Virus record (IMG/VR): IMGVR_UViG_3300046512_000152 | Location: 1-31,603 of that record | Source: a virus | DNA: 31,603 bases | Reading direction: 5' to 3' (one strand) | Shown: positions 22,122-24,386 of the stretch, one piece after another | Numbering within the stretch: position 1 is the first letter of the stretch | How the letters are laid out: each line of letters starts with the position of its first letter | Notes under the pieces: model-generated | The model's input: only the letters and a program-made list of their open reading frames with translations | Database searches by the model: none | What the model was told of the DNA's origin: nothing | Program-made: the position numbers and the translations under genes

Positions 22122-22210
22122 AGGCACCTCCAATGCTGTTACGCCAAATTCAAGCATGCTTGCACTTAATAAGCAAGCATGCTTGCCAAGCTAACTTGTA
22201 GATTGCTTGC
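22122..22210. promoter_or_regulatory. Right operator region (OR) between cro and cI
   Basis: Three dyads share one pattern: CAAGCATGCTTG at 22151-22162 and again at 22174-22185 (23 bases apart) and the looser CAAGCTAACTTG at 22187-22198. On the minus strand TTGCTT and TTGAAT stand 17 bases apart across the first two operators, a plausible PR. On the plus strand TAGATT lies at 22199-22204, seven bases before the repressor ATG, so PRM would make a leaderless message. The same operators recur at 24332-24386. Confidence 0.8.
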
Positions 22211-23059
22211 ATGAAAATTACTGATCGGATTGCGAAACTTGTCCTGGCGCGAAAGCCTGAGATCGGGCCGCGAGGATTCAAAAGGGATATAGCGACCACC
22301 TGCGGGGTCAGCTACGAAGCTGTTCGTCAGTGGTTTGCAGGCGACACCGGCAACATCAAGAATGAAAACCTAGTCGCGATCGCTGAAGGCTATGACACGA
22401 CGGTCGATTGGCTACTATCTGGCAAGGGTGAGCCGCCGAGCCGGAAGGTCGTCAATGAGCTAAAAACCGGTCAGAAGTCATCTGCAGATCTGGTCAAGCA
22501 GATGCTCGCGAAGCATGGCCGGGGACTGTCGGAAGAAGCACGAGCGCGAATCGTCGAGGTGGTAGAAGAGGTGGCACTGGAGTCGAAGTCGACCAATGTA
22601 GTGAAAGTCGACTTCTCTCGCCCCGGCCAAGTCGGTGACGAGGTGTGGATTGCGCACTACGACGTGCGTGCAGCGATGGGTTGCGGGCAGATCCCACATG
22701 AATACCCGGAAATGCTCCAGGACATAAGGGTCAGCCCCAAGCATCTACGCGATCTAGGCGTCACGTTCAAAGAGCACTTCCACCTCAAGATGATCACCGG
22801 ATGGGGTCAGTCGATGGCACCGACGATCAAGGATCGCGACCCACTGCTCGTCGACATTACGGTCCGGGAGTTTACAGGCGACGGTATCTACCTCTTCTCC
22901 CACGACGACATGCTGTACGTGAAGCGCTTACAGAAGAAAGGCAAGGACCGCTTCAAGATGATCTCGGACAACAAGCACCACGACCCCGAGGACATCCGAG
23001 CGGATGACACACATATCCTAGCCAGGGTGCTTTACGTCTGGAACGGACAACCGGTATGA
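22211..23059 (+). CDS. CI-type repressor, S24 peptidase family
   Basis: This 282-residue repressor has an N-terminal helix-turn-helix (DIATTCGVSYEAVRQWFAGD, about 27-46) and a C-terminal S24 domain. S201 in GWGQSMAPTI and K238 in LYVKRLQK form the catalytic pair. AAMGCG at 154-159 is the likely self-cleavage segment, with a Cys-Gly bond as in P22 c2. RecA filaments would trigger cleavage and induction. No ribosome site precedes the ATG, so the message is probably leaderless, as from lambda PRM. It likely binds all six CAAGCATGCTTG-type operators. The linker (80-130) is longer than in lambda CI. Confidence 0.94.
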   Translation: MKITDRIAKLVLARKPEIGPRGFKRDIATTCGVSYEAVRQWFAGDTGNIKNENLVAIAEGYDTTVDWLLSGKGEPPSRKVVNELKTGQKSSADLVKQMLAKHGRGLSEEARARIVEVVEEVALESKSTNVVKVDFSRPGQVGDEVWIAHYDVRAAMGCGQIPHEYPEMLQDIRVSPKHLRDLGVTFKEHFHLKMITGWGQSMAPTIKDRDPLLVDITVREFTGDGIYLFSHDDMLYVKRLQKKGKDRFKMISDNKHHDPEDIRADDTHILARVLYVWNGQPV

Positions 23060-23063
23060 CGCT

Positions 23064-23300
23064 ATGTCCCTGACCAAGCCAAACCAAGACCTTAAGCGCG
23101 ACCTACAAGGCATCGCCTCCGACCTCAAGTGGTCAGCCGTAGAACTGATGAGGGTTGCGGAGCGACTTAGCCTTGCAGGGAATGAGTCGGACGCTCAGGC
23201 CGTGCTGAGGATGTGCATCGTATTTAATGCAGACGAGGATCGGCTGACGGAGTATGTGGACGAGGTGAAGGCAGGAAGGATTTTGCGGGGGGGAGCTTGA
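23064..23300 (+). CDS. Small hypothetical protein in the rex position
   Basis: This 78-residue helical protein (MSLTKPNQDLKRDLQGIASD onward) contains LKWSAVELMRVAERLSLAGN. No family recognised. It starts four bases after the repressor stop with only a weak ribosome site, so translation is probably coupled to cI and driven by the repressor promoter. It is expected to be made in lysogens. The gene is GC-typical for the window. Confidence 0.62.
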   Translation: MSLTKPNQDLKRDLQGIASDLKWSAVELMRVAERLSLAGNESDAQAVLRMCIVFNADEDRLTEYVDEVKAGRILRGGA

Positions 23301-23352
23301 ATAGAAGGCGAAACGGATCTGGGCACTCGATCATCACAAGGGAGCGATTCTG

Positions 23353-23871
23353 GTGGCAACCATCAAGTTCAGTTACAGGGATGCAAAGGGCGATTTGAGT
23401 CAGCGCGAGCTGATCCAGTGGTCAGAGAACTCGCTCTACATTCAGGGGAGGTCTGCTGCTGACTCATTCCCCAAAACATTCAGGAAAGACCGCATAGTTG
23501 AAGTTCACTTTGGTGCGGAGCTACTGCTGAATGACGCCGCACCACCAGCTCCAATGCTATTGCCAAAACCACGCCCATCGGCCATTGCTGGGTCGTCCGC
23601 TGCTTCCCACCATCCACAGCCAAAGACACCGCCCGGTGGGATAAACCAAATTCTTTTCACTGGCTTTGCGGCGGCGCACCGAGCCGAGCTTGAGCGAAAG
23701 GCAATGGACTCAGGGCTAAAAGTTATGAGTACTCCTGGCAAGTCGCTGACTTTTCTCTGCTATGGCGATAACGCCGGGCCTACCAAGGTTGCGAAAGCAC
23801 AGGAAGCCGGAGCCTTCATCATTGATGCTGAGCAGTTTCTGAGTTTGATAGCAACCGGCGAGATGCCTTAG
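23353..23871 (+). CDS. BRCT-domain protein in the rex position
   Basis: The protein has 172 residues. The N-terminal 55 (FSYRDAKGDLSQRELIQWSE, GRSAADSFPKTFRKDRIVEV) resemble a WYL-type beta domain. Residues 60-95 are a proline-rich linker. Residues 98-168 form a BRCT domain of the DNA-ligase type (ILFTGF, GLKVMSTPGKSLTFLCYGDN, AGPTKVAKAQEAGAFIIDAE). BRCT domains bind DNA ends or phosphoproteins. The start is GTG at 23353 with GGGAG upstream. It follows the repressor on the same strand, where lambda has rexAB, and ends in a bidirectional terminator. The biological role is unknown. Confidence 0.78.
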   Translation: MATIKFSYRDAKGDLSQRELIQWSENSLYIQGRSAADSFPKTFRKDRIVEVHFGAELLLNDAAPPAPMLLPKPRPSAIAGSSAASHHPQPKTPPGGINQILFTGFAAAHRAELERKAMDSGLKVMSTPGKSLTFLCYGDNAGPTKVAKAQEAGAFIIDAEQFLSLIATGEMP

Positions 23872-23916
23872 AGGGCATGGTGCGATAGGGGCCGTAGTCG
23901 GCGCCCCAGGTATCAC

Positions 23917-23955
23917 AAAAAGCCCGCGATCGAGCGCGCGATCGAGCGGGCTTTT
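23917..23955. terminator. Bidirectional terminator between convergent genes
   Basis: AAAAAGCCCGC and GCGGGCTTTTT form an eleven-pair stem around an inner loop with a repeated GCGATCGAGCG. T runs exist on both strands. It separates the repressor operon from the convergent DUF1654 gene. Confidence 0.9.
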
Positions 23956-23964
23956 TGTTGTCCA

Positions 23965-24282
23965 TCAGAAAGGCGCCAGCTCTTCTTCTGGCTCGAATTC
24001 GGCTTCTCCCCTTCCCGCCTTCTCCACCTCCTGCTGCTCCCACCTCACCGTCACGCTGCCGTCATCATTTAATGTCAACTCAAGTTCGTCCGTATCGGCG
24101 ATCACACCAAGTACCTCTTCCCATTCCCGATCCCCGTCCGTATCCAGGCGATGAATCGTTACCCAGCGCTGCGCCTGCGCCACCGGGTGATTGATCATCG
24201 ACGACACCCTCAGGCCCAATCTTTCCATGCTCGTCATTTCTGCCCGCATCGACTGCCCCGGGCTTCCCTTCTGCTTAGGCAT
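23965..24282 (-). CDS. DUF1654 family protein under LexA control
   Basis: This 105-residue protein has the DUF1654 pattern: SMERLGLRVSSMINHPVAQA, a WVTIHRLDTDGDREWEEVLG stretch and LELTLNDDGSVTVRW. The family is found mainly in Pseudomonadaceae and their phages. Its function is unknown. The ATG at 24282 (GGGGTGG upstream) is chosen. The ORF start at 24312 would overlap the LexA box. A perfect LexA box (24299-24318) lies just upstream, so the gene should be induced by DNA damage. It is convergent with the BRCT gene. Confidence 0.82.
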   Translation of the reverse strand: MPKQKGSPGQSMRAEMTSMERLGLRVSSMINHPVAQAQRWVTIHRLDTDGDREWEEVLGVIADTDELELTLNDDGSVTVRWEQQEVEKAGRGEAEFEPEEELAPF

Positions 24283-24298
24283 AACCACCCCCCTAGAA

Positions 24299-24318
24299 TA
24301 CTGTATACACATACAGTA
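24299..24318 (-). promoter_or_regulatory. LexA (SOS) box
   Basis: TACTGTATACACATACAGTA contains CTGT-N8-ACAG with the outer TA/TA as well, matching the gammaproteobacterial LexA consensus. It lies 17 bases upstream of the DUF1654 ATG and 14 bases from the left operators, so SOS and CI control meet here. Confidence 0.9.
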
Positions 24319-24331
24319 ATCAAAATATACA

Positions 24332-24386
24332 CAAGCGTGCTTGCATTAATATCACAAGCATGCTTTTATTAATGCAAGCCGACTTG
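24332..24386 (+). promoter_or_regulatory. Left operator/PL region
   Basis: Three copies of the repressor operator: CAAGCGTGCTTG (24332-24343), CAAGCATGCTTT (24355-24366) and CAAGCCGACTTG (24375-24386). The first two are 23 bases apart, just like the right operator pair. TTGCAT at 24341 and TTTTAT 17 bases further on form a candidate PL with its -35 and -10 in these operators. It drives the plus-strand operon towards integrase. Confidence 0.8.

Follow-up and report, generated by a model that had tools for sequence, protein, structure and literature searches.

A WYL-BRCT Gene in a Swappable Cargo Slot behind a Prophage Repressor Is a Candidate Exclusion Gene

The interval between the cI-type repressor gene and the DUF1654 gene in a virus genome (IMG/VR virus record IMGVR_UViG_3300046512_000152; the whole stretch analyzed, 31603 bases, is referred to below as the window) is a swappable cargo slot that holds defense-like genes in relatives. 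In the window, this slot carries a gene for a protein that combines a WYL-like barrel with a BRCT domain. We tentatively propose, with somewhat less than even confidence, that this WYL-BRCT gene is an exclusion gene expressed in the lysogen, the product of which would bind 5'-phosphorylated or single-stranded DNA structures in a phage genome that is entering the cell or replicating. The main rival to exclusion is a DNA-damage regulator of lysogeny.

Organization of the Immunity Region

The cI-type repressor gene (22211–23059, + strand) encodes an HTH_3 domain (Pfam E = 3.5e-5) and a Peptidase_S24 domain (Pfam E = 1.7e-19), and the cro-like and CII-like genes lie on the side of cI opposite to the two genes that follow it. 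The first of these, ORF A (23064–23300, + strand; 78 amino acids, phrog_6388 at E = 1e-32), starts 4 bp past the cI stop codon, and the second, the WYL-BRCT ORF (23353–23871, + strand; 172 amino acids, phrog_2561), has a GTG start; because both have relatives, we regard them as genuine genes. Scanning of the + strand from cI to the end of the BRCT gene revealed no terminator-like or promoter-like site, and the only site returned by the promoter scan was weak, on the − strand and not above chance. A hairpin with A/T runs on both sides was found at approximately 23915–23957; its 94-nt fold reached −49.3 kcal/mol with a z score of −5.2, and none of 200 shuffles folded equally well, a strength that argues for a real two-way intrinsic terminator. 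The original prediction that two genes follow cI on the same strand, with no terminator between and a bidirectional terminator at the end, was thus borne out by the scans and the hairpin fold, and the end coordinate that it gave for the BRCT gene, 23871, was exact. The convergent DUF1654 gene (23965–24312, − strand; Pfam PF07867, E = 2.3e-26) forms the right border of the cargo slot.

Operator-like repeats lie between the cro-like gene and cI at 22151–22184 (AAGCATGCTT at 22152 and 22175), and a second pair lies beyond DUF1654 at 24332–24365 (AAGCGTGCTT at 24333 and AAGCATGCTT at 24356); thus, the block stands between two operator-like regions, in a lambda-like layout. The window contains four such sites against a mean of 1.37 expected, and 7 of 100 shuffles reached four, so that the excess over chance has only modest statistical support. 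The 34-nt unit beyond DUF1654 also has matches in three relatives (L237, L241, and L243), where they likewise lie beyond DUF1654. The pair upstream of the divergent DUF1654 gene matches the pair upstream of cI, which suggests that the DUF1654 side is also under CI control.

From this arrangement, we infer that cI, ORF A, and the WYL-BRCT gene are co-transcribed in the lysogen from the repressor promoter. In the available part of an RNA-seq study of a Pseudomonas lysogen of phage Fc02, the gene e4, to which no function is assigned there, was covered by transcripts (PMC9936078), providing a precedent for transcription, in a Pseudomonas lysogen, of an accessory gene that lies downstream of the repressor. 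The lambda rexAB genes are similar in their position behind cI, on the same strand and ended by a terminator, with expression from the repressor promoter presumed; however, a single conserved gene is found here rather than an obligate pair.

Contents of the Slot between cI and DUF1654

The cargo is missing in three close relatives (L237, L241, and L246), which align with the window (blastn) up to 23055–23066 and again from 23947, with approximately 22–35 bp between; these contiguous flanks place the cargo insert at approximately 23060–23946 (+ strand). We examined 160 loci, the window included, and in 87 of them the cI C-terminus was followed by DUF1654, with 77 distinct interval sequences and with WYL-BRCT present in 8 loci (4 distinct); because the loci were chosen by likeness to the cI or ORF A of the window (at most 80 per scan), these frequencies are not population rates. 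The interval in the 87 loci ranged from 17 to 4304 bp (median 1883), and the ORFs, called with a simple longest-ORF script, fell into 135 protein clusters.

A set of 88 of the 135 clusters was searched with PADLOC models; ORFs shorter than 80 amino acids or on the minus strand had been removed, as had the clusters of ORF A and WYL-BRCT and a single HTH cluster. These 88 slot proteins (19078 amino acids) gave 121 model matches at E values up to 1e-5, a figure that is not a count of proteins since the models overlap, whereas a control of 66 proteins (11068 amino acids) from the other, early-gene side of cI gave 5. The PADLOC matches include BstA (1.1e-117), RmrA (two proteins), HEC-04, PDC-M53, and PDC-M63, and the Pfam matches include HipA_2, DUF3037, an AbiEii-like AAA_21, RelA_SpoT, Imm_superinfect, PIN (three members), and HATPase. 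Among 30 contigs tested, the BstA match was traced to one (L306), directly behind cI, and the HEC-04 match to one, at the contig and place of the L226 slot gene. The other slot cargo is not all defense. In L155–L313, the slot is hypervariable, with HipA-like plus DUF3037 genes, a RelA/SpoT domain, PIN proteins, and many unknown genes.

The original case for exclusion had been argued from the rexAB position, and it was strengthened by the finding that the interval is a cargo slot holding BstA and other defense-like genes in relatives. The idea of such a slot is already known, and it is the content described here that is new: the available part of the BstA paper recalls the region behind cI as a mosaic hotspot, occupied by rexAB in lambda, and reports that bstA lies downstream of cI, a position behind repressors that is seen in many cases, and that BstA localizes to phage DNA replication and suppresses it (PMC8585504). 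Like the WYL-BRCT gene, bstA of the Salmonella prophage BTP1, a proven abortive-infection gene, is a prophage gene directly behind a cI-type repressor, and BstA occurs in the same slot in L306; the proteins differ in that BstA has a KilA-N-like domain, and the BstA model gave no match to the window protein at E values up to 1.

Architecture of the WYL-BRCT Protein

The family phrog_2561 matches the window protein over residues 1–172 (E = 3.6e-38), and pairwise dN/dS values of the window copy against four relatives ranged from 0.04 to 0.23. AlphaFold2 predicted a beta barrel and a BRCT domain joined by a disordered linker (pLDDT 72 overall, 84.6 for the barrel alone). The N-terminal WYL/Sm-like barrel spans residues 4–53 (23362–23511, + strand), the disordered proline-rich linker residues 59–94 (23527–23634, + strand; pLDDT below 50), and the RFC1/LigA-type BRCT residues 98–172 (23644–23868, + strand). 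In five of six computed pairs, dN/dS was higher in the linker than in the barrel or the BRCT. Residue conservation was counted on an alignment of 33 WYL-BRCT relatives, every row of which retained Y8, R44, D46, and R47 in the N-domain and FTGF, LC.G.NA, K145, A149, and G153 in the BRCT.

The BRCT domain was recognized by Pfam PF00533 (residues 100–166, E = 2.9e-6, above the gathering cutoff), and its profile matched 31 of the 33 relatives at E values up to 0.1. In both sequence and structure searches it was nearest to RFC1 and LigA, with a Foldseek E value of 7.8e-5 for the RFC1 BRCT. Structural re-alignment with VIA gave Z = 10.9 and an rmsd of 2.1 over 75 aligned residues for RFC1 (2ebu), and Z = 12.1 and an rmsd of 2.0 over 76 for Rad4, a phosphopeptide-binding tandem BRCT; thus, the fold does not separate RFC1 from phosphopeptide-binding tandem BRCTs, and on fold alone a protein ligand would be possible. 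The 5'-phosphate site of yeast Rfc1 comprises Thr166, Gly167, Arg174, and Lys209, according to the available part of the source (PMC9359705), and these residues correspond to T103, G104, R110, and K145 of the window protein in an assignment derived by hand from the sequence alignment and the structural alignment ranges. T103, G104, and K145 are kept in all 33 relatives, and position 110 is arginine in 18 and lysine in 15. These conserved pocket residues support the earlier suggestion that the BRCT senses DNA ends or replication intermediates, and the domain would probably bind 5'-phosphorylated DNA in the manner of RFC1. The likeness to RFC1 and LigA lies in the fold and the four 5'-phosphate positions; unlike them, the window protein is without an AAA+ or ligase part and has a WYL partner instead.

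Profile searches of the window protein detected no adenylation, OB, or nuclease domain among possible catalytic parts. An identity as a DNA ligase was rejected because only the C-terminal BRCT positions of the LigA models matched, and, judging from these profile matches, the PHROGs label "DNA ligase" for phrog_2561 is misleading. The gene records NC_008201 and NC_049342 carry the same annotation as phrog_2561, and the BRCT is the only part in common with a ligase.

The assignment of the N-domain as a WYL/Sm-like barrel is supported by fold and residues. The Pfam WYL profile matched the window protein at E = 0.15, under the cutoff, and 4 of 33 relatives at E values up to 0.1 (best 0.021), and, of seven relatives or fragments scanned with PADLOC WYL models, four gave E values of 0.0035–0.027. 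In Foldseek searches, the whole protein matched PafBC (E = 1.5e-3) and DriD (E = 9.9e-3), and the top matches of the barrel alone were PafBC, BrxR, and DriD, all WYL proteins, at E values of 0.03–0.1, with none reaching 0.001; VIA alignment of the barrel gave Z scores of just 6–6.7, with DriD level with Hfq and unrelated small barrels. R44 and R47, present in 33 of 33 relatives, align with R201 and R204 of PafC, one of the two PafBC arginine pairs, at a constant offset of 157 between PafC 183–208 and positions 26–51. A PDB sequence search with the barrel only gave PafC at E = 0.23; OspA variants, which had the best E values in that search, were discarded as sums of weak repeats with no single stretch significant. 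In PafBC, as described in the available part of the source, the PafB arginine pair is essential for single-stranded DNA binding and the PafC pair is dispensable when mutated (PMC11804915); thus, the correspondence of R44/R47 marks the WYL ligand groove and is no proof of single-stranded DNA binding. By analogy, the barrel may bind single-stranded DNA or another nucleic acid. PafBC, DriD, and BrxR share with the window protein an Sm-like barrel with a conserved arginine pair, but as transcription factors they carry an N-terminal HTH, for which the window protein gave no match.

The three-part description in the original prediction, a WYL-like part, a proline-rich linker, and a BRCT, therefore held, the BRCT by Pfam, the WYL by fold and residues while below the Pfam cutoff, and the linker as predicted disorder. 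The same prediction had not recognized the domain combination. WYL with BRCT is in fact already on record, since Makarova et al. 2014 list BRCT among the domains combined with WYL (PMC4012209) and PHROGs holds a family; what stands is that the combination, in the available part of that list, appears in print without a function. A literature search on BRCT with prophage, WYL, or exclusion, the coverage of which left most subscription journals outside, returned no study of a WYL-BRCT protein. Sequence comparison shows the two domains together repeatedly, in most relatives in the WYL-BRCT order. In CP061233 the WYL and BRCT are encoded by neighboring split frames, the latter of which continues into a long C-terminal extension; phrog_36782 likewise extends further at the C-terminus. 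On the Enterobacter soli plasmid pENTAS02 (L139:4001–4867), the BRCT comes first, followed by a weak WYL match (PADLOC WYL E = 0.0059) and a further C-terminal part, and the gene stands next to one for a membrane protein, with a helix-turn-helix regulator gene on one side and the integrase on the other.

Distribution and Gene Neighborhoods

By tblastn, WYL-BRCT matched 18 of 50697 phage records, which come from phages infecting Pseudomonas, Escherichia, Vibrio, and Mannheimia, and 7 of the 18 matches span at least 80% of the query. It was present in 11 of 298 Pseudomonas-genus genomes (E up to 1e-12) and in 3 of 369 genomes of the class, the center genome counted (E up to 1e-13), and the E. 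coli version was present in 167 of 5426 complete genomes (megablast, at least 80% coverage). Among 20 upstream ORFs, which were picked by eye and in which L112 appears to repeat the gene of L031, a repressor-like gene of several kinds was found in 17: 14 S24, 2 of the Phage_CI type (L023 and L078), and 1 with HTH only (L036); of the others, 1 was Arc-like and 2 had no match. The gene directly follows the repressor in Vibrio PV94 and Mannheimia PHL101, the repressors of which are unrelated to that of the window.

The rule of a repressor operon is broken in the P2-like E. coli phages 500465-1 and Cartapus, where the gene lies at the prophage edge by ogr and not behind the repressor. Several Pseudomonas chromosomes also carry a copy for which the listed neighboring ORFs include no repressor. 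Five of these copies, near tRNA-Gly (L012, L014, L015, L106, and L107), gave pairwise dN/dS values of 0.16–0.30, which indicates purifying selection. No att repeats of at least 14 nt were found beside tRNA-Gly in these five loci, and we therefore do not claim them as prophage remnants; at some of them, the neighboring genes are, by eye, presumably HicA/HicB-like. Broken copies, truncated in L019 and frameshifted in L025, indicate that the gene can be lost.

Proposed Function and Alternative Explanations

The comparison of loci shows the WYL-BRCT gene to be accessory cargo of the immunity region, exchanged as a cassette in the interval from cI to DUF1654. In the mechanism that we propose, the lysogen would transcribe it together with cI, and its product would be a non-enzymatic protein that binds DNA structures. 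The BRCT would hold a 5'-phosphate on DNA at ends, nicks, or recessed ends, the WYL barrel would hold single-stranded DNA, and the flexible linker joining them would allow junctions of single- and double-stranded DNA to be recognized. Superinfecting phage DNA might then be interfered with at its linear ends, in its replication, or in its ligation, resulting in exclusion. Given the precedent of BstA, the most economical choice is that the protein interferes with the replication of phage DNA or with the ends of the genome.

Several observations weigh against this mechanism, among them the location of the gene by ogr in P2-like E. coli prophages, the dispensability of the PafC arginine pair, the weak fold matches of the barrel alone, and the slot cargo that is not defense. 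In addition, each of the two domains is also part of housekeeping proteins for repair and replication, and PADLOC gave no complete system for the window protein, the match being limited to the BRCT part of the candidate PDC-S48. PDC-S48 was rejected as a relative because the BRCT is all that the two have in common; its N-terminal part matches exonuclease-like proteins, which from their sequences we take to be of the DnaQ type, in 217 of 229 genomes, and the best 8 of these loci bear no resemblance to the WYL-BRCT protein. A more specific form of exclusion, to which we give a small chance, is a two-handed DNA-junction clamp that acts by binding without an enzyme. The BRCT would take the 5'-phosphate and the barrel the adjoining single strand at a cohesive end, gap, or nick, and host ligase or clamp loading would be kept away, so that the invading genome could neither circularize nor replicate.

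The strongest alternative, which we consider unlikely yet a real contender, is lysis-lysogeny control, in which the protein would sense single-stranded DNA or DNA ends after damage and modulate CI activity or induction. The apparent co-transcription with the S24 repressor and the sensing of single-stranded DNA by the WYL factors PafBC and DriD favor it, and the available part of a 2026 preprint describes BRCT-domain proteins with cI in exchangeable lysis-lysogeny modules termed damage-responsive, proposing a damage-linked role for BRCT proteins in these other phage modules (PMC13345283). However, the gene is missing in close relatives with 81–84% identical cI regions, it also follows the non-S24 repressors of L023, L078, and L036 and one Arc-like ORF, in E. 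coli prophages a long distance separates it from the repressor, and the Pseudomonas chromosomal copies have no repressor among the neighboring ORFs listed.

There seems little chance that the protein is instead a DNA repair or ligation helper, a ligase or clamp accessory serving the host or the prophage with no exclusion. Although the PHROGs label and the nearness of the BRCT to RFC1 and LigA by sequence would fit such a helper, the protein has no adenylation or nuclease domain that we could find, its gene is seen in lysogeny regions, at prophage edges, and at a few orphan loci, and WYL-BRCT is missing from 287 of 298 Pseudomonas genomes. A block of host DNA-end processing, Gam-like against RecBCD or dampening the SOS response, which would stabilize the prophage or protect phage ends, agrees with the predicted binding of 5'-phosphorylated ends and single-stranded DNA; it is nevertheless improbable, being purely inferred and placing among lysogenic rather than early lytic genes a function of this kind.

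Finally, a RexAB-like system needing the products of both ORF A and WYL-BRCT is very improbable: the genes are adjacent in the window and in several relatives, but ORF A has relatives in 151 of 298 Pseudomonas genomes against 11 for WYL-BRCT, WYL-BRCT is found near 1 of the 20 ORF A loci scanned, the gene order is reversed in L016 and L017, and of 50697 phage records ORF A matches 2, which do not include the Vibrio, Mannheimia, or E. coli ones. The original view of the two genes as a dedicated pair was thus not sustained, ORF A being far commoner, usually without the BRCT gene and found on either side of it. At 8 of the 20 ORF A loci, the preceding protein has an S24-like motif, and ORF A is, as far as these comparisons go, a common gene, often post-repressor, that is no dedicated partner of WYL-BRCT.

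Exclusion by the WYL-BRCT protein remains our preferred reading. If the junction clamp proves true, it would represent enzyme-free exclusion by end capture across siphoviral and P2-like phages of Gammaproteobacteria. The family phrog_2561 is widespread and mislabeled, and it comes with a biochemical prediction that is testable down to residues. The stretch that follows prophage repressors is already known as a hotspot, where BstA shows that strong defenses can hide, and the Pseudomonas prophage cargo slot mapped here may serve as a source of further exclusion gene candidates.
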